Origin: Bombyx mori
Taxonomy: Eukaryota > Arthropoda > Insecta > Lepidoptera > Bombycidae
Length of the DNA: 64,000 nt
Assembly: GCF_030269925.1 (NCBI RefSeq)
Contig: NC_085129.1
Coordinates: forward strand, 17,847,501-17,911,500
Reading direction: 5' to 3'
Of this stretch, positions 12,852-63,552 are shown one piece after another; within the stretch, counting starts at the first letter, position 1; each line of letters starts with the position of its first letter. The notes beneath the pieces were generated by a model that worked only from the letters and a program-made list of their open reading frames with translations, was not told the DNA's origin and did no database searches. The position numbers and the translations under genes are program-made.

Positions 12852-13215
12852 GTGTGCTTAGTGCGAGTTTTTTAACGTTCTCGATAGCGTAAAAGTGAAC
12901 TCTAAACTGTGGTAGTTTTCCAATTACAGTACAAGAGCGCATTATGCGGCATAATGCTCAACTAAGCTTCAGCATAATTCGGCATTGTGCGTAGTTTTCC
13001 AATTACAGAGCATAATGCGACTCAGTGACGCACAATGCCGAATTATGTTGAGCATTATGCCGCATAATGCGTTCTTGTGCTGTAATTGGAAAACTACCTG
13101 TATGGAGCAGGAACGTTTGCCTACGTTTGCCGCTAGGGGCGCTGTTCTAACTGCATACAAATTTGAGTTAACTTTTACGCTATCGAGAACGTTAAAAAAC
13201 ACGCACTAAACACAC
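12852..13215. mobile_element. MITE with long nested inverted repeats
   Basis: The outer ends, 12,852-12,901 and about 13,165-13,215, are near-perfect inverted repeats sharing TTTTTTAACGTTCTCGATAG. Inside, 12,912-12,995 and about 13,015-13,097 form a second inverted repeat with GTAGTTTTCCAATTACAG at its outer ends. Nearly the whole 364 bp could fold into one long hairpin. It has no transposase, and I could not settle on a target duplication. Short frames on both strands are a by-product of the symmetry. A fragment of the right end occurs at 17,541-17,615. Confidence 0.65.
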
Positions 13216-20582: not shown

Positions 20583-21734
20583 GTCTGGCCATAAATACTG
20601 TTACGCACTGTCTGGCCATAAGCAAGCACTCTTTCCTTGGGAAAATTTTTCACTGCCAATCGTACGGATTGTTTTAGGGACTCCAAATTATCATGGCGTT
20701 TAGAGCAAGCCATACTCTCTAAAACTAACTATAAATCATAATCCAGCGGATTAAGATCGGGACTAGACGACGGCTAGTCGTCAGCTCTGATGAAGTCCGA
20801 AACGTTCGTTTCCAACCAAGACTGCGTAGACCGAGCTTTATGACCTGGCGCCGAGTCTTGCTGGAAGGACCATTCTTGATTATTGAACATGGAGTTGTTA
20901 AGGGGCTTCACTACCTTCTCAAGAATAGTATCTTGATACACTTGTGCCGATGTTTTGATACCTTTTTCACAAAAGTATGGCTCAGTCACTCCTTCATTGC
21001 TAATACCCCACCAAACCATCGCCGAAGTCGGATAGTGCCCACGTTGCACTCTGTCGACTAATTGGGAAGCTTCCTTAGAGCTTTGACCATAAATACGGTC
21101 ATTTTGTTTGTTAAAATGTTGCTCAATTGTAAAAATTTTCTCATCCGTAAACAAAAATTTTCTATGACCTCCCTTTGCGTACCGCTTCAGTAGTTGTTTC
21201 GATTTTACCACCCTATTCTCTTTTAAATTATTAGTTAAGAAATGACCAGTACGTCCCTTATAGGCTGCAAGTCCTAAATCATCTTTTAAAATACGCGACA
21301 TGGTTCTAGGTGCTATCTTCATCTCCCGAGATAAAATCTTTTGCTTTCGGACAGGATTTCTTCGAATTCTTTCCCTTACCGCTTTGACCACCTTTTTCGT
21401 ACGAACACTACGTGGACAGTCAGATCTTTTTCTGTCACAAACAGAGGAGGTCTCATTGTACCTATTAATAGCCCGGTACACAAACATTTTACTAATACCA
21501 AGCGTATGGAGAGTTTTAAAAATTGCATTTGGCTCCATACCTACTTTGTGTAATGCAATCACAGCGATTCTGTTCTCTTAATCACCCCACTCCATTTTAA
21601 TATCGCAAAATATTGTACAATGTATTGGCGACAAAATGAGAAAACTCAATGAGCAATCATATAAAAATGACAGATTCCAAATTCAAATGTAATATTTTGT
21701 TTATTTTTAATTGTAACAGTATTTATGGCCAGAC
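20583..21734 (-). mobile_element. Complete mariner element, D,D37D type
   Basis: A 1,152-bp element bounded by perfect 22-bp inverted repeats (20,583-20,604 and 21,713-21,734) and flanked by TA on both sides (20,581-20,582; 21,735-21,736). This is the target duplication expected for Tc1/mariner. Twelve bases of the repeat (GTCTGGCCATAA) occur again just inside the left end at 20,610-20,621. It carries one dead transposase gene on the minus strand. The type matches what I remember of silkworm Bmmar1/maT-like mariners; I cannot confirm which family. Confidence 0.9.
20585..21595 (-). pseudogene. Mariner transposase (D,D37D), inactivated
   Basis: A DNA cut-and-paste transposase of the Tc1/mariner superfamily. 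The likely ATG is at 21,593-21,595, but codon 6 is TAA. An open stretch of 262 residues (20,774-21,562) follows. It contains a paired helix-turn-helix region, then LFTDEKIF (first catalytic Asp) and FQQDSAPGHKA (second). Two more nonsense codons follow, one right after IRADD (at 20,774-20,776) and one after PLDYDL. The third Asp, in SPDLNPLDY, lies 37 residues after the second, which defines the D,D37D class. Both late stops replace what are probably Trp codons. All three catalytic Asp codons survive, so only point mutations have killed it. Confidence 0.9.
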
Positions 21735-26292: not shown

Positions 26293-28123
26293 ATGAGTAA
26301 ACAGAAAGAGTTTAAGTTTCATGTAATTGAATTATTGGAACCTCCATGCATAAATGCTGAAAAATATGTTTGCGTTCCGAATTCTTGGCTAAGATTATGT
26401 GAAACATCAGATAGTGAAGCTCTGGTTAAATTTCCTTGCGAAGAACTATCAGAAATAAAGAGATGTGCTAAGAATCAAGAAATCTTAGAATACTGGAAAG
26501 TTTTATTGGCTGATATAAAGTACAGTACCAGTAAGTCGTAATCATTATCGTTTTATGTGTTCATTATAGGGCCTCTTTTTTTAGGTAGCGATAATATCTG
26601 ATACGATTTGGCAAACAGTTTAACCTCCACTATGTTTTCTAAAAACTATTTGCTGCAATTGACTAAACCGCTATTCTAGTTCAGAACTAGTGATACTTCC
26701 CTGTCAATAATACAAGTCTAAAAGAGTATTCGACATAGTTTGGGTAATTAAAACTAATTTTTTTATAGACTCCTATAAAGACGCAAGCAACTATATCAAG
26801 ATATTAAATAAAATATCCGATCAAGATCAGAGCAGCACGAAAATAGTCGAAGGTATCCTATTGTTCTGTTGACACTTAAAAGCATTTCTTTTGATTAGGT
26901 CGCTAATAGTTAAAAATTGCATTCCAGATGTGCCATCAACATCGGAAAAGAGTTTACTCCAATCACAATCGAGCTCAAAAACAAACAAAGTCCGTACAAC
27001 TTCAGCTCTAAACAGTGATGCGGAACCAGTGAGTAATGAAATACCAAAACAACTTGACTTAACTAATGCCGAAGTAAAAATAGGCCAAAAGAAAAGTAAA
27101 GTTGAAACTGCCGATTCTTCCCCCAAAGCCAGAAGATGTTTGACAAGAGAGTCACTCAGAATATCTTTATCAGGCAATAATACCGTTAGTTTGCCAGATC
27201 AAACTGCAAAAGAGAATCTTCCGACAACTAGCCATTGTGTTAAAGGGAGCGATAAGATTAACAACAACCAAGAAAATGAACCATCAGCACAGAACAGTTC
27301 AGAGTTAAAGAGAAAATGGCAAATTATAATGGCTCTACGGTCAGTCTTTGGTGATAACTTCAAAGAAATATTGGAACAGCTTCATAGTGAGTATGAAAAA
27401 AACCAATTACTGTTAGAGAAAATGCGGCTTGCGTTTATGGAAAATTGTAAGATCTTAAAAGACTTCATTGAGGTAACTAATGAAATCTGTAATGGTCCTG
27501 ATATTAGTGATCTAGATTCTGTAGTCGAAGAATTAGAAAATAGAACGATGGAAATAAATATAAATGAAAACAATCCAGATAAAGCAACCGGATCAAAAGT
27601 ACAAAATGATACTCGAAAAAAGGAAGAGAAGAAACAAAATAGTGACGGTTCAGAAGTTAAAAATAATAATCCACTGAATAAGATCCGAGACAAAGCGCAC
27701 AAGTTTACTTTACCACCAGAGTATGATCCGAATGACTCAAGATGGACCCTAAAGCATCGGGAAAAGAAAAGTGGACTTGTTGAACTCCTACCACAGTCAC
27801 AAGTGTACATAGACGCCATTCAACTAAGCAATTGTAACATAATGTCGCAAGGCAGCAAAACCCTTGCACGAATGTTGTTACTAGAAATTTTTACCAAGAA
27901 TGCACTAAGCGTTTGTTCTCTAACTGGAAAAAAAGCCAATGCATTCGAAGGACCAATAAGGCCCGGTCTAGATGAACATGCAAGAACTGTTTTATTGAAC
28001 TATGTTAAGAAATATGCGGCTGAAAAAAATTGGGCTGATTTTGATAGGCAGCTGGTTGTGAACAGTATTCGTAACAAAATGCAAGAAATGAGAGGCAAAT
28101 ATAAAAAAATAGTCGAAAAATAA
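26293..28123 (+). CDS. BEN-domain protein, three exons (511 aa)
   Basis: Exons 26,293-26,530, 26,769-26,852 and 26,910-28,123 join in frame (phases 1 and 1) and give 511 residues with a TAA stop. The ATG directly follows a splice acceptor (ATTTATTTTCAG), so a 5' non-coding exon must lie upstream. Residues 1-107 form a conserved-looking N-terminal region (KYVCVPNSWLRL). Residues 110-240 are Ser/Asn/Lys-rich and probably disordered. Residues ~241-301 look like a coiled coil. A Lys-rich linker follows, and residues ~404-501 match a BEN domain (GSKTLARMLLLEIFTKNAL, then LDEHARTVLLNYVKKY). BEN domains bind DNA and act mostly in transcriptional repression and chromatin. The second intron is only 57 nt; an alternative acceptor at 26,898 would break the frame. 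I cannot tell which BEN family it is. Confidence 0.8.
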
Positions 28124-54864: not shown

Positions 54865-57800
54865 ATGACCAGAAAGCGTCAAGTGGTAACAAGAACTCGC
54901 CGATCAAAGAGAAGTAAGTACCTATTTTTACAATAATTTTAATTACTTAGTAGTGATGAAAAGTATTGTTATTCAATGTTGTTATGCTATTTTTTTATTG
55001 CGTAGATGGGTGGACGAGCTCACAACCCACCTGGTGTCAAGTGGTTACTGGAGCCCATAGACATCTACAACGTAAATGCGCCACCCATCTTGAGATATAA
55101 GTTCTAAGGTCTCACGTATAGTTACAACGGCTGTCGCACCCTTCAAACCGAAACGCATTACTACTTCACGGCAGAAATAGGCGGGGCGGTGGTACCTACC
55201 CGTACAGACTCACCACACGTCTTACCACCAGTTTTGTTTTAATATTCCTATGTGGGTACAATCAACAACACTAATAGCTGTCGGAAACTTGTATTTAATT
55301 TTATAGCTCTATTTGTTTGTAACCCTTGTTATTGGATTTTTTCCTTTAGATTTACTCGGTAGCGGCTCGGAGACTAATTTTGAAGACTCGTCTGAGGCTG
55401 CGGTAGGTAAAAAAGCAATTTTTTTCCTTATCGTTTTAAATGGGTAAACGAGCTCACGGCCCACCTGATGTTTAGTAGTAACCGAAGCCCACATACATTA
55501 CTAATGGGAATGCCGCCACCCACCTTGAGACATAACGAAGAGTATTTATGCAGATATTACAATTAACGCACAATATACCCGTACGCCTTCTATTCATGAT
55601 AAAAGCGCAAAAAATTCAAGTCGCAAGGCACAATCGGAGTCCGTTAGAAAAAAACATTATTTGCACAAGTAGTCGTATGGGGGCAGAGAATCAAGTCCGT
55701 TGGCGAAGCCAAGATCAAAACTTAAGATGAACTAGGTCAATCGTGTGATAACAGCGTACAACAAAATAAAGCAACTGGCAAAGCTATTACAAATCATTTA
55801 ATAGGCTATAGAGTCAGTACTGCCATAACTATTATTTTAATTACCGTATATTTACACACTTGATTAATCTTACAGCTTAATATATTATTATACAACAAAA
55901 CACAATTATTTAGTTATTTTATTACGTACCAATTAACAAAGAATAATTAATATTATTGTTTATCATTTGAAATACTTTAGGAAATTATTTTTTTAATAAA
56001 TACTGCAATTTTTTTGGCAACATTTTTAATCGATACTTTACAAATGCATTAAACCGGAAGCACCAAAAAAACGAATTAAAAGCTTATATTAAATTAACAT
56101 TTTTTTGTGGCTTTGCCACGTAAACCTAACATCAGCAAATAAAATTATTAAGTTTCGTTTATGTCTCAATCTAAGACGCTTTTTAAAACATTCAGTTAAA
56201 AAATTGCCATTCTTCTTTCCCGTTTTATTTATTTATTATGCAAACTGTATTTAATGCATTTTTGGCTAAATTTTATTCACATAACTATATAAATGATCGT
56301 CAACATATAGTTCATGCACTCGCTTGAAATTTTATTTTATATTTGTTTTTTTTTAGTCGTACCAAGATTCATCTGAGTCCTACAGACCATCGTCTGAAAC
56401 TGAAGAAGATAATTGCTCTTTAGAGTCACAAAGAGTATGTACTTTCCTATTTTTTAAAAATGGTTATTACATTGACATTGATAAATTTTTAACTAAAAAA
56501 GATTTTGTTCAATGTATAAAACACCAACTAATTTGGCCCTGGAAGGTCACTCATTTTGTAAGAATGAATAAATGTTTCAACTGTAATGCTAGCGCTCATA
56601 GTATCATACATATACAAAGCCCGTTACATTTCGTAACAAGCATGAACAGAAATTGTATTAGAGCATTAGTAGGTAAAAAATTTTTTTGGTGTCAAATTTG
56701 CAATTATGCCATATATGATCATTATACACCTGATGAATGTGACTGTAATTATCAACCAAGGTTCATCTAGGTTTACTTTTAGATATTGATTAGTGGCCTT
56801 AATTCACTTTATTTATAATCAAAATGGATAAAAAGCTAACGAGAAACGAATAATATTAATATTTTCAAGATATCGTACAGTTTTAACCGTCTCGTCGCTG
56901 TTTATGCGCTAAGATTTCTTGTGTAGAAGAAGTAAATCACCCTCAAATTCCTGTGAGACAAACTTTGCAGATTACTAGAGTCACTGGTGTCACCTTATTT
57001 CGAATTTCAATTTTTAAGATATATAGTTTTAGTTTTTATATAGTTATAGCGAAAATGAAGAATCGAATAGTCATAAAAAGTCTCTTTCGTTTTCTCATTA
57101 ATGTCAAACATTAACTTTTCAACACTTATGAACCAAGGCTTGATGATTGTACTAAATTATAATAAATAATTAATATATAATAAATAATAATAATAAATAA
57201 TTGGTTATAAGATTATAATAAATAAAATAATTATTTTAATTTTTGCCACTACGCCTGTTGCGCCTATTACTATGGGGATGGTTTCTGTGTGTGTATTCCA
57301 GAGTCGTGTTAGTTCTATTTTTAAGGGGTGATATTTACTAAATTTTTCCAGTTCTTTTGATCCTATAATAAATAAAATAGGTATTTGGATATGATTTTTT
57401 AACATGGCAGTGCCAACTGCCTCCTGTCACACTCTTAAGAAATTATTTAAACTCAAGGTCTTAAACATAACTAAATCTGCAGGTACAGGTGGCAACAGAA
57501 ATTTCTGACGAAAATAATGTTGACAACAGCGCGAATTTCACATTGAATTCCGATATAAGTACATACTTCAGACATTCACAAATATTAAATACACTATCTA
57601 ATTCAAAATGTGATACGCCTACGTCTACCCATGAGGATGAGTACTGTTTTTTTTGTAATAAAAAAGTTCAGGATTTTTTAAATCATTATAGTGCAGTTCA
57701 TGAATACAACTTTCAGCATGCAATTGAAACACCAAATAATAATCTTAATGCAACTCCCAATTTAGCCAGTTTTAATAATAGTTCAGTTTTGTCAAAAGAA

Positions 57801-59924
57801 ATAAGTAACATACTACCACCGCATGATTCACTCACGGATACACCCACAAACACCAATGACGACCAAAAAAATTTAAATAAATTACAAAAAACCACAAACA
57901 CACAGAAAGAAAATAAAAAAAGGCTACGTCTTCCAGACTTCTGCTTCTATTGTGAAAAACAAGTCCATAATTTTTCGAGACATTTAATCAGGAACCATGC
58001 CGTCGAATGCGAAGTTCAGAAAATTTTGTCAATTCCTAAAAAGAATCCTAAAAGAAAAAAGCTACTTACTGATTTACGAAAAAAAGGGAATTACATACTC
58101 AATTCGGCCCAGTGTGTAAAACCCATGAAAAAGACTGCCCATTCTACAGTTGATGATTATTTACCTTGCACGAAATGTTTAGGGTTTTACTCGCGGAGAC
58201 AGCTATGGAAGCATCGCAAAACATGCACTGAGAATAATAGCGATAACTTTTCACAAGCAGATGCTCAAAATTTCTTAGTACGAAACTTAAAGGTTGATGA
58301 TAAATTAAGGAGTTCAGTATTTCGACGCATGAGGGCGGATAAAATCTCACTGATAGCTAAAAAAGATCTTATTATTTGTGCATTTGGTGCTCAGTATCTC
58401 AAAACGCACAGAGAGAAGCATTTTGTGAACGTTGTGTCACGAAAAATGCGGGAGCTGGCTAAATTGCTAATCGAGGCTAAAAAAATTAAGCCAGAAATAC
58501 AAGACTTATTCAGTGCATTAAAGCCAGAATACTACGATGTTATGGTAACAGCTACGAAAAATTGCGCGAAATTTAATGTAGAGAAAGACGTATACGTCAG
58601 TCCCACATTCGCAATGAATATCAGTACTTCTATAAAGCAATGTTGTAATATCGGCATTATGGAAACTCTAAAAACTCAAAGAAGTGTTAAGAGTGCTGAA
58701 ATCGAAGCAGACTTGAAAACATTTATTCAACTTATTGAAGCAAATTGGAAATTTGACGTTTCTTCCCATGCAGCTGACGACTTAAATATGAAAAAATGGA
58801 ACAAAATCACGATAGTTCCCCTGGCTAGTGATTTGAAACTGTTAAAGGAGCATTTAACTAAATTAGCAAATAGTAGCACCAGTAAGTTACAGCATACCGA
58901 TTTAAACGTTACAGCATACATAGATTTAATGGAAACCATATTTTGTAGAGTACTCTTGTTAAACAGACGCCGTCCTGGAGAGTTGCAGCGTCTTCTTCTC
59001 GATACCTACATATCTGCAGAAGATACACAAAGTAAATATGAAGAATTTGACAGAGCTATTACAGTGACTGAAAAAGTCTTAATAAATAGCTTGAAACGCG
59101 TCGTGATTCGTGGAAAAAGAGGAAGGGGTGTTCCTGTTCTGTTTACGCCCGATGTCCAAGAAGATCTGAAAATACTGATTAATGCGAGAGATAAATATAT
59201 AGAAAAAGGAAACCCTTTTCTTTTTGCCAACCCTGGTTGCAATACATCAATTTATGGTTATAAAGTAATTGATAAACATGCTTTACTCTGCAAAGCGAAA
59301 AATCCAAAAGCAATATCTTCAACGCGCTTAAGAAAGCATTTAGCGACTTTAACACAATTATTTAACATGACCGAAAACGATTTAGAGCAGCTCGCGAACT
59401 TTATGGGTCATACAAGTGCAGTCCATAAGCAATCTTACAGGTTACCTGACGACATCTATCAAACGGCTAAAATTTCCAAATTACTTATGTTGATGGAAGA
59501 CGGTAAAGCTGACGCGTACAAAGGCAAAAGTCTTGATGAGATTAATTTAAACTTAGACGAGGAATTGGAAGGAGAAAATATAGATACGGAAGTACTTGAG
59601 TGTGCAGAATATATGGAGCAGACTGTAAATGTGAACCAGGAACCAAGTTCATCCGGTGTAAATCAAGAGGATGGCACCATAGCCACCGAAACATTAACAT
59701 TAGGCCAAACTAACTCGAAAATTTCAAAGAAGCGCATTTTGGTCCCGTGGACGACAGAACAGAAATCAGCTGTTTTAAGTTATTTCAAAATGCATATTAA
59801 GAAACGTAAGCCGCCAAAAAGAGGAGAGTGCGAAACATTAAAAGAATTATATCCAGATTTACTGTCGAATAAAGATTGGCTCAAAATTAAAGTATTTATT
59901 CAAAATACTTACTCAAAGAAGTAG
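54865..59924 (+). CDS. Zinc-finger protein with tyrosine-recombinase-like domain, four exons (~873 aa)
   Basis: Exons 54,865-54,913, 55,350-55,402, 56,357-56,434 and 57,483-59,924 join in phase (1, 0, 0); the last acceptor could also be at 57,488/57,489 (two residues fewer). Exon 1 encodes a basic start (MTRKRQVVTRTRRSKR); exons 2-3 are Ser/Glu-rich. Finger-like motifs: C-x2-C-x9-H-x4-H at ~115-133 and ~214-232, and C-x2-C-x11-H-x3-C at ~289-308. Residues ~540-730 resemble a tyrosine recombinase: Arg557 (RRRPGEL), Lys ~605 (RGKRGRG), Arg677 (TRLRKH; the usual His of HxxR is Thr), His703 (MGHT) and Tyr712 nine residues later (SYRLPD), the XerD-like spacing. Residues ~813-868 look SANT/Myb-like (PWTTEQ). 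I recall similar multi-exon proteins in fish and corals, often uncharacterised. Crypton-type origin is an inference. No terminal repeats flank it, so it looks like a host gene. Confidence 0.75.
54990..55232 (-). mobile_element. Bm1 SINE, 3' portion
   Basis: TTTTTTTATTGCGTAGATGG to CGTCTTACCACCAGTTTT. In intron 1 of the recombinase-like gene. Confidence 0.8.
55437..55538 (-). mobile_element. Bm1 SINE fragment
   Basis: GGGTAAACGAGCTCACGGCC to CACCCACCTTGAGACATAA, with a deletion. Intron 2 of the recombinase-like gene, 35 bp after the exon-2 donor. Confidence 0.6.
56357..56770 (+). CDS. Alternative terminal exon: cysteine-rich C-terminus (isoform of the recombinase-like gene)
   Basis: If the donor at 56,435 is not used, the exon-3 frame stays open for 112 more codons to a TAG at 56,768-56,770, in AT-rich DNA where stops should be frequent. 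With exons 1-2 this would give a ~171-residue protein. The extension has paired cysteines and histidines: CFNC, then WCQICNYA, then DHYTPDECDC, suggesting metal binding. I do not recognise the domain. It lacks both the recombinase and the fingers of the long form. A relic coding segment is the alternative. Confidence 0.5.
   Translation, partial: SYQDSSESYRPSSETEEDNCSLESQRVCTFLFFKNGYYIDIDKFLTKKDFVQCIKHQLIWPWKVTHFVRMNKCFNCNASAHSIIHIQSPLHFVTSMNRNCIRALVGKKFFWCQICNYAIYDHYTPDECDCNYQPRFI
57165..57415 (-). mobile_element. LINE fragment: reverse-transcriptase C-terminal tail
   Basis: Minus-strand frame with KYHPLKIELTRLWNTHTETI and PIVIGATGV, a sequence common at the end of insect non-LTR reverse transcriptases, followed by a TAAT-rich tail. 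It ends ~70 bp before the acceptor of exon 4. Confidence 0.65.
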
Positions 59925-61364
59925 TTTTAATTTCATAGGGGTGATAAAATCAATATGGTGATAGGGTATTTCATTTTTGTTACTGGGTATTCAATTTTTT
60001 TTTTTTTGGGTTCGATCTATGAAAAATGTGTATTCACCAGGCCTGTAGCCAACATGTAATTTTACAAAGGAAAACACCAGTTGAAACGTACACAATGTAT
60101 GTGATTGACATTAGCGTTTCGTTGTCAATTCATAAATTGTGTACTTTTTTATAAGCGTTTTCGATAGTGAAATTGCATGTTAACTAGAGGCATTGAATAG
60201 ACTGTCTGACTGAACAGACTGAATAGTCGTTCGGATCGTAAAACAAGTTACAGAATCCTATCCAGAATCCAGATCTCTTGTCTGGATTTCAGCAAACATT
60301 GCGTAGATCAATAATATACTTATTTAAATATAAGTCCTATCATTTTCTTTAAACACACACACACAAACACACACACCAACCTACACGTACAGACACACAA
60401 ATACACACGCTAACCTACACGTACACACACACAAACACACACGCCAACCTACACGTACACACACACCCAAACACACACGTACATACACATGCACACCAAC
60501 GCACATAAATACTCTCGCAAGATTATTCAAATTCTTATACGCACCTGACCATTATTATGCGTGGACAACCGAGTAGAAGAGTAATTTAGGTTCCTATCTC
60601 TTATAATATTTGGTTTGCATTAATATTATTATAATTTCTGTAATATTAAACAATTTTACAATATGATAATGCGTAATATTATCCAGGTATTGTGATTGTA
60701 ATAGAAAAATAAATCGTATTATATTTTATAATCTATAGATATAGAACTTACTTAATATGAAACAACAGTACTTTTGGATAAATGTATCCAAATAGTTTCT
60801 AAATTTGTACACTAGTGGTTTTATAGAAAATAAAAAAATTTAAATCTCTTCATAGCTGGATCCTCCGAAAACGAATCTTATTCTTGCAAAACCGTATTTA
60901 TGAAATAATATATGATGTGGTGCTAGAGTAAGAGTCGTCTTCAAAAGCCTTCAGACGATGAAGATAGATAGATATATTCATGAAGTTTCATGAAGATATA
61001 TTCAATATTTTCTAAAAAACAACTTGTAAGTAATATTATAATTTCAGTTTTATTTTTATTTGTTAATAATTGACTTGATAGAAACGGTTTTCTTTTTATT
61101 AATTTTGTTTTGAAACTAATTAATTTGATAGAAACTATTTTTAATTCATCCAACCTGAAGATTTGTTATTAGTTTTAAAATTACAAACAAGACACTACCT
61201 AATGGTATTTTAGAATTAATATTTTGTTTTTTGTGAATATTTGATAATAAATTTTTTCTATTTCCAGACAGGCTTTTATATTTATCCCTTTCAGTTATGT
61301 ATAACCAAATAGGCAAATGTTGAAAATTATTTTAGAAAAAAACCAATACTTTTATCAAACTGAG
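59925..61364. other. 3' flank; no further gene seen
   Basis: AT-rich. No AATAAA occurs in the first 100 bp after the stop, so the transcript end is unknown. I looked for the next lachesin exon (the Ig-domain Cys region) and did not find it. Confidence 0.4.
60352..60512. repeat. CA-rich minisatellite, ~34-bp units
   Basis: AACCTACACGTAC recurs at 60,378, 60,412 and 60,446 within a (CA)n-like background. Confidence 0.8.
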
Positions 61365-61544: not shown

Positions 61545-61797
61545 TATTATTATTTTTTATTGCTTAGATGTGTGGACGAGCTCACAGCCCACCTGGTGTT
61601 AAGTGGTTACTGGAGCCCATAGACATCTACAACGTAAATGCGCCACACACCTTGAGATATAGTTCTAAGGTCTCAGTATAGTTCACAACGGCTGCCCCAC
61701 CCTTCAAACCGAAACGCATTACTGCTTCACGGCAGAAATAGGCGGGGCGGTGGTACCTACCCGTGCGGAGTCACAAGAGCTCCTACCACCAGTAAAA
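61545..61797 (-). mobile_element. Bm1 SINE, 3' portion, inserted in BEL element
   Basis: TTTTTTATTGCTTAGATGTG to GAGCTCCTACCACCAGTAAA. BEL coding sequence continues on both sides, so the SINE is younger than the retrotransposon. Confidence 0.85.
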
Positions 61798-63552
61798 ATT
61801 CCGTCAAGAATAATATGCGCATATACAACTGCACCTAATAGCACGTCGATAGATCCTGGCTTGTGAAAGTGTGGATCCGCAAGATCCGAAATCTCAGAAG
61901 AAGGCCAGGTATCTGATGGGAGCTCTTGTGATGGTAATCTCGAATTTATTCGTCTAAGGACGTACACCTTAGCTGTGATCATGTGTGATGAATTTCTTAT
62001 AGCATGAAAGTTCAACATAACTTGTGACTTGGTTATCAGCGGTATAGATGATATGCCAGTAATTTTTCTGCTGATGGAAGTGCGCTCGAGATTAAGCAGT
62101 TGAGCTGCCGCTTCAGTAACAAAGTTTGATTGCGAGCACGGATCAATCAGTGCTCTCAAGACTATCGTGTCGCCGTTCCTCGACTTAACTGCAATTCGTG
62201 CGGTTGCCAATAATACTTCCTGACTGTTGCTGTCAACCTCAGCCTTGTAAACGACGGATGATGTGGGTTGGCTTGTTTCAGGTGTACTGGGTGTTACTGT
62301 ATCGCTTTCCGGCACTGATGTGGTCTTCTTAGGGTTTGTGAAGTGCAACAGAGTGTGATGTCGTCGACTACTTTCTCTACAGGTGGTGCTCTGCCTACAC
62401 GCATTAACGGAGTGACCCTTTACAAGGCAATTAAAACAAATGCCATTCTTCTTAATAAAATCCTGACGTTGAGGAACATCTAATGCGGCGAATTCTTTAC
62501 AATGACAAATATAATGGTTTTGTGAGCAATAAGTGCATTCACTGCTTACTTCTGTGACAAATGACTTCATATTTGTGGGTTTTTGGGTTGTATACTTTTT
62601 AACTAAGTCCTTTTTCTGCGGTTGGTCTTTTTTGTGAGTAACATTTACAATATCCATAGAACCGAAACGATTTTCTAAAAATAATGATAAAATGGTAAAT
62701 GTGGGTATGTCTTGAGATGATCCAAGTGACTGTTCCCATTGTTTGTGTGTTTCTAAGTCCAATTTGGATACAACTAAATGTACGATAATCGCATCATATG
62801 TGGAGGTATCCACGCCAATATTGTCAAGAGAATTCAAACATTCCTTCGTAGTATCTAAAATTTCCTTTAAACTTTTAAAACATTCTGTGTTCATCTTCTT
62901 TTGATTTAAAAGGCAGCTAATTATTGTAGTGACGATCATACGTTTGTTATTGTATCTACTCTCAAGTGTGCTCCAAGCCTTATCGTAATTAGCCTCCGTG
63001 AGTGCAAAATGTTTTAGAAGTTGTTCAGCCTCTCCCGATAAACTCGTTTTTAAATAATGATGTTTTTCAATCGTTGTTAGATGCACGTTGTCATGCATGA
63101 GAGCCTTAAACAAATCTTTAAAACTTGTCCAGTCGTTATAATTACCGGCGAACTTTGGAATCGATAAAGGAAGAAATTTACTTCTAATCGGGGTGGTCTC
63201 GCCATCATTTGTTGCTGAAAAACTCTGCTTAGTATTACTTGATTGTGGTTGACCTTGACCTTTCGAAAATTCCAGCAAGTAATCGTTTAATAATCCCTTA
63301 AATTCAAGGTATATCTCTTCAGTTGTCTCGTATAGACTTTCGGCATTAAATTGTAATGCTCCAGTTCAGTTTTCGTAACCGCTGATTTAATCTCATATTG
63401 AATTTGATACTTAGACCAATAGCTTTCTAATCTTTCTAACTGTGTTTGTAGATAGCCAAGTGTGTATCTTGATTTAGACGTCTTTTTAGTATTATTTTGT
63501 AACTTAGAATACGTTCCGATAAGGTTTTTTGTGATTCACAAAGTTGAGCCAT
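61798..63552 (-). pseudogene. BEL/Pao gag-protease polyprotein, broken
   Basis: The long open part (to 63,278) carries the BEL gag region (LSIPKFAGNYNDW; YLKTSLSGEAEQLL), an upstream Cys/His cluster, a CCHC zinc knuckle (CFNCLVKGHSVNAC) and an aspartic-protease-like motif (ALIDPCSQSNF, where the usual D-S/T-G reads D-P-C). A likely original ATG at 63,550-63,552 is separated from this frame by at least two frameshifts. Downstream the frame runs into the inserted Bm1, which adds foreign codons. The changed protease motif and the frame breaks suggest it is not functional. Confidence 0.8.

Follow-up and report, generated by a model that had tools for sequence, protein, structure and literature searches.

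Tyrosine recombinases have been called rare in eukaryotes (PMC3212892), and those from animals that are described in the articles consulted here belong to Cryptons, to DIRS-type retroelements, to catalytically dead domesticated remnants or to endogenous viruses (PMC3212892; PMC4157794; PMC10871703). Here we analyze LOC105842288, a gene of Bombyx mori located at positions 54865-59924 (+) of a 64,000-nucleotide stretch of contig NC_085129.1 (17,847,501 to 17,911,500 of the forward strand), in the following referred to as the window. An earlier note on this DNA had read the gene as a domesticated recombinase and as a candidate for an undescribed system. We consider it rather probable that LOC105842288 is a full-length recombinase gene of an animal-wide, multi-copy and probably mobile family that would work like a Crypton.

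Several described systems are relevant for comparison. For animal Cryptons, Kojima and Jurka (2011) found no terminal repeats and describe these elements as lacking a C-terminal domain (PMC3212892). Domesticated DUF3504 genes derive from Cryptons and have lost catalytic residues, and for a bird recombinase sequence in ATF7IP both strong selection and possible activity have been suggested (PMC3212892). CryptonV elements are animal transposons that use a recombinase (the title of the cited work names cnidarians), and some families of them are said to insert into microsatellites (PMC8869645). DIRS- and Ngaro-type retrotransposons carry tyrosine recombinases as well (PMC4157794). Finally, endogenous nimaviruses of crustaceans encode tyrosine recombinases that are not close to those of DIRS elements or Cryptons. 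Some of them comprise a C2H2 and a SAM-like domain, others are encoded by multi-exon genes, and insertion occurs in telomere repeats or 28S rDNA (PMC10871703).

Results

LOC105842288 belongs to a large family with a nearly complete active site

A protein search with LOC105842288 gave 382 matches at E<=1e-3, 120 of which were listed and are referred to as the insect set. A second search, whose query was an approximate fish-protein stretch, gave 1208 matches at the same threshold, again with 120 listed (the fish set). All statements on the two sets refer to these listed matches. Named members of the insect set come from moths, butterflies, beetles and one damselfly, those of the fish set mostly from ray-finned fish and from two frogs. 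Every fish-set protein (120 of 120) matches LOC105842288 by BLASTP, the best with 31.6% identity (E 7e-103) over residues 182-868, and the architecture of zinc fingers, recombinase and tail is common to the fish and frog proteins. With 382 database matches, LOC105842288 is thus not an isolated recruit. The term 'undescribed system' is not supported either, as the protein is already annotated and has hundreds of relatives.

The catalytic domain (about residues 540-740; 58920-59522; all features of the gene are on the plus strand) was delimited by residue conservation and predicted fold. It comprises R557 (58971-58973), K605 (59115-59117), R677 (59331-59333), H703 (59409-59411) and, at the position of the nucleophile, Y712 (59436-59438), while T674 (59322-59324) takes the place of the first His of the HxxR motif. 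All of these residues, as named in the earlier note, are present and conserved across the insect set: R557, T674, H703 and Y712 in 120 of 120 proteins (LOC105842288 included), K605 and R677 in 119. The corresponding counts in the fish set are 120 for R557, T674, R677 and H703, 119 for Y712 and 117 for K605. A tyrosine-recombinase active site normally has His where this family has Thr, a position that is more variable and is not taken here as required for membership in the fold superfamily. Since Thr is found there in all 240 listed proteins, it is a mark of the family rather than a sign of decay. Judged from the sequences, the active site is nearly complete and the LOC105842288 copy is probably catalytically competent. 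The suggestion that the protein may still exchange strands is supported as a possibility.

The predicted structure of LOC105842288 has the two-domain fold of tyrosine recombinases. It aligns structurally to XerH, XerD and Cre at 8-18% identity. A helical core-binding domain (about residues 315-496; 58245-58790) is seen in the AlphaFold2 model, and XerH and Cre align from residue 155 of the model on, which is residue 354 of the protein. The structure alignments comprised LOC105842288 with 113 of the 120 insect-set proteins and with 92 of the 240 proteins of both sets.

Zinc fingers and C-terminal tail

Three finger motifs had been noticed ahead of the recombinase, and all three are present, but only two of them are features of the family. 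Finger 1 (C115-H133; 57645-57701) is an extra finger that resembles finger 2; its columns are mostly gaps in the insect-set alignment, and LOC105842288 alone among the 120 insect-set matches has three. Finger 2, of the C2H2 type (C214-H232; 57942-57998), and finger 3, of the C2HC type (C289-C308; 58167-58226), are found family-wide: C214 is conserved in 101/120 insect-set and 83/120 fish-set proteins, C289 in 114/120 and 90/120, the rest being mostly gaps. The C-terminal tail (residues 811-873; 59733-59921) is helical in the AlphaFold2 model and conserved, with W816 and W859 in 111 and 109 of the 120 insect-set proteins and in 77 and 76 of the 120 fish-set proteins (again, the rest are mostly gaps). 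The tail called 'SANT-like' before is a stretch of predicted helices shared by most insect-set proteins; Pfam models gave no match to residues 739-873, and the SANT label is putative.

Gene model

The four exons, their GT-AG borders and their reading frames could be confirmed in the sequence as claimed, and together they form one stop-free open frame of 873 codons. Exon 1 (54865-54913) carries the start codon and residues 1-17, its last codon being split at a GT donor that joins in frame to exon 2 (55350-55402; residues 17-34), which is bordered by AG and GT and again joins in frame. Exon 3 (56357-56434) encodes residues 35-60, and exon 4 (57483-59924), with an open frame of 813 codons, encodes residues 61-873 plus the stop and thereby the fingers, the recombinase and the tail. 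The predicted product of 873 amino acids is identical, letter for letter, to NCBI LOC105842288 [Bombyx mori] (P0001), the top match of the protein search, whose entry sits on a 21.6-Mb contig of Bombyx mori. Within exon 3, an acidic stretch (residues 38-52; 56366-56410) reads DSSESYRPSSETEED and is centred on YRP. Of the 240 listed proteins, 155 could be tested for a YxP pattern written for this analysis from that exon, and 84 of them carry it ahead of their first finger, against 5.9 expected from shuffled N-termini. Because the pattern of exon 3 recurs across the family, the small exons are supported independently of RNA. On these sequence grounds we regard LOC105842288 as confirmed to be a real gene model, the splicing of which is predicted.

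Distribution and signs of mobility

Some species of the insect set possess several divergent copies of the family. In the fish Metynnis, two protein pairs with 97.2% and 97.6% identity are encoded on different contigs. Trees were calculated from 66 of the 120 insect-set proteins and from 27 of the 240 proteins of both sets. The latter mixes moth families, grouping Diatraea with Parnassius (support 96/93) and Euphydryas with Eumeta (100/100). An approximately unbiased (AU) test against a Diatraea-Scirpophaga pairing gave p 0.025, the alternative having been picked after inspection of the tree. According to the trees, several lineages of the family are present in moths, and their patchy distribution argues against an old host gene common to all moths. 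The identities speak against such a gene as well: the closest relative listed, P0017, has an intact active site and is 86% identical by BLASTP (82% over 454 aligned columns), and none of the other insect-set matches exceeds 66% identity to LOC105842288. In 28 of the 120 fish-set proteins (e.g., P0122 and P0133), a precomputed SET domain is recorded, either as a fusion or as a prediction artefact.

Within the repeat families viewed, which were 20 of the 32 direct ones and 25 of the 37 inverted ones, no long pair surrounds the gene except copies of a short interspersed nuclear element (SINE). Short A+T-rich repeat pairs of 16-19 nt flank the gene and are such as chance would be expected to produce. 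The lack of terminal repeats and target duplications had been taken to fit domestication. However, missing repeats are no sign of it, because terminal repeats were not found in animal Cryptons either (PMC3212892). Two potential insertion targets were considered and rejected: telomere repeats form no array (one match with one mismatch, against 4.7 expected by chance), and a CA-rich array is present on one side of the gene only (60354-60496).

Selection and age of the Bombyx copy

Intron 1 harbors a SINE copy (54990-55232, +), which we take to be Bm1-like and which differs by 5.8% from a consensus built on 15 other SINE copies of the window; a partial SINE-like copy in intron 2 (55421-55535, +) is more diverged. 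Within this window, the 15 copies span 2.1% to 12.0% from the consensus. As the relatives are known as protein sequences, neutral drift was simulated on the window's frame in place of determining the ratio of nonsynonymous to synonymous substitution rates. A frame of 873 codons would stay free of stops with P 0.0015 at 5% drift and 0.0245 at 3%. In addition, among the alignment columns occupied in 100 or more of the other 118 proteins, 143 show a conservation of at least 95% in these proteins, and LOC105842288 deviates at only 3 of them. With simulated drift of 4%, the mean was 12.7 deviations and none of 1000 runs ended with three or fewer; with drift of 3%, the mean was 9.7 and a fraction of 0.011 of the runs ended with three or fewer. 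Weaker drift is compatible with the data, however, as the probability of three or fewer deviations is 0.60 at 1% and 0.107 at 2%. Since the split from P0017, none of 102 conserved columns has changed, compared to 14 of 318 variable columns (Fisher p 0.027). This pattern is consistent with selection, although the branch would span any mobile phase too. The clean frame next to a SINE diverged by 5.8% suggests selection on LOC105842288. It follows that either selection acted after the SINE arrived, or the whole gene changed its place at a later time and carried the SINE along, or the SINE is younger than its distance implies.

Neighborhood of the gene

Upstream of LOC105842288, the segment 54130-54252 (+), preceded by AG and followed by GTGAGT, has the appearance of an exon that belongs to a different gene. 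We presume a resemblance to an immunoglobulin-superfamily protein; neither a Pfam match nor a credible PDB match was obtained. The recombinase gene may lie inside an intron of the gene to which this exon belongs. Downstream, an imperfect palindrome of about 175 bp (60028-60202; 70% match to its own reverse complement) starts 104 bases past the stop codon. Considered as a candidate element end, it lies downstream of the gene and was not adopted as such. The segment 59990-60260 folds far better than shuffled sequences (z -5.06), and the palindrome looks like a hairpin-type miniature element. Further downstream, a 548-aa open frame (61722-63365, -) matches DUF1759 (E 3e-38) and presumably encodes a gag-type protein of a BEL/Pao-like retroelement. 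Elsewhere in the window, we observed a 416-aa open frame (26873-28120, +) that contains a BEN domain towards its end (E 1e-17), a transposase-like frame (20777-21577, -) with helix-turn-helix matches just under the curated cut-off (best E 2.5e-6), which we take to be mariner/Tc1-like, and a match to the mir-2807 precursor (13088-13170, +) at 54.3 bits compared to an Rfam threshold of 54.

Discussion

LOC105842288 is more likely to be the gene of a mobile element, or to be derived from one, than to represent an isolated new system. The best reading of the sequences is that it belongs to a Crypton-like, multi-copy family found across animals, annotated but unexplained in Bombyx. If the family works like a Crypton, the zinc fingers and the core-binding domain would hold a specific DNA site, and Tyr712 would attack the DNA backbone with the assistance of R557, K605, R677 and H703. 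Strand exchange would then excise the element as a circle or insert it elsewhere, without terminal repeats. The Bombyx copy would either have moved with the SINE inside or have been retained in place by selection. The near-identical Metynnis pairs, which fit such mobility, could be an assembly artefact.

Alternatively, a copy might have been recruited in the Bombyx lineage and kept as a domesticated host gene, be it as a site-specific DNA-binding protein or as a still-active recombinase. This is a possibility to be taken seriously, yet a clearly less probable one. It would account for the few deviations at conserved columns compared to 3-4% drift, for the long stop-free frame and for its occurrence next to a diverged intron-1 SINE; one close relative with an intact active site exists in P0017, and the P0001 cluster is on one contig. 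Moreover, the bird sequence in ATF7IP, which may be active (PMC3212892), illustrates that kept catalysis is compatible with a role in the host. However, drift of 1-2% fits the data too, the SINE distances vary widely and the intron-1 copy may have travelled with the element. Furthermore, P0017 stands alone above 66% identity, several family lineages occur in moths, and the Crypton-derived DUF3504 genes have lost their catalytic residues (PMC3212892). For this latter reason, a bare DNA-binding recruit, as the earlier note offered, no longer appears adequate: unlike in DUF3504 proteins, the catalytic residues are kept family-wide. Both ideas can be combined, and we tentatively consider, with somewhat less confidence than recruitment as such, an unclassified animal-wide lineage of recombinase elements (with Thr-variant site, zinc fingers, tail and, in fish, sometimes a predicted SET domain) whose Bombyx copy was retained as a catalytically competent host recombinase.

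Two further explanations carry less weight. An old family of recombinase-like host regulators, non-mobile, expanding by ordinary duplication and often lost, would match the introns in the coding region, the kept acidic N-terminal pattern and tail, the precomputed SET domains of the fish set and four Serrasalmus copies on contigs of equal size. We nevertheless deem it unlikely: one fish carries pairs of 97% identity on separate contigs, the moth lineages are patchy and the cleavage residues are kept. More improbable by far is a leftover of a DIRS-/Ngaro-type retrotransposon or an endogenous virus, even though such elements carry tyrosine recombinases (PMC4157794) and those of nimaviruses may have a C2H2 domain or multi-exon genes (PMC10871703). 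No other frame of at least 150 aa is present in 53-61 kb (decayed frames were not searched for), and the neighboring minus-strand frame matches DUF1759. A precomputed reverse-transcriptase domain occurs in 0 of the 240 listed relatives, and two scans of IMG/VR gave no relative.

A family of hundreds of proteins, ranging from damselfly to frog and with a cleavage-ready yet altered active site, would widen the list of animal tyrosine recombinases. It supplies intact enzymes for testing and raises the question of how a recombinase works with Thr at the usual position of an active-site His. No description of the family was found in the available text of PMC3212892, PMC4157794, PMC3537659, PMC10871703, PMC5753468 and PMC8869645, a literature that does not extend to Repbase reports and preprints.

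Comparison with known systems

The same 873 amino acids are found in the NCBI entry of LOC105842288, an uncharacterized protein listed without function, Pfam domain or family. XerH, XerD and Cre share the core-binding and catalytic folds of the LOC105842288 model at the low identity given above, but they lack zinc fingers and tail and have His at the HxxR position. DUF3504 is not among the 16 families listed for 50 of the 120 insect-set proteins at E<=0.1, and since the active site is kept, the family falls outside the domesticated DUF3504 genes. It resembles CryptonA and CryptonI in using a recombinase as its enzyme, and in its occurrence in animals including insects; terminal repeats were not found in animal Cryptons (PMC3212892). 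In contrast to both, it has a conserved tail and two zinc fingers, and the first His of HxxR is replaced by Thr. These differences are drawn from descriptions, and the tail places the family outside CryptonA and CryptonI as described in that work (PMC3212892). CryptonV, which is known here by citation only, could be the same family as the relatives of LOC105842288. These elements were reportedly described by Kapitonov and Jurka in 2012. Compared by description, some nimavirus recombinases are similar to LOC105842288 in their C2H2 domain and others in their multi-exon genes, but they are carried by virus genomes (PMC10871703). Either the nimavirus recombinases or CryptonV may be kin of the LOC105842288 family.

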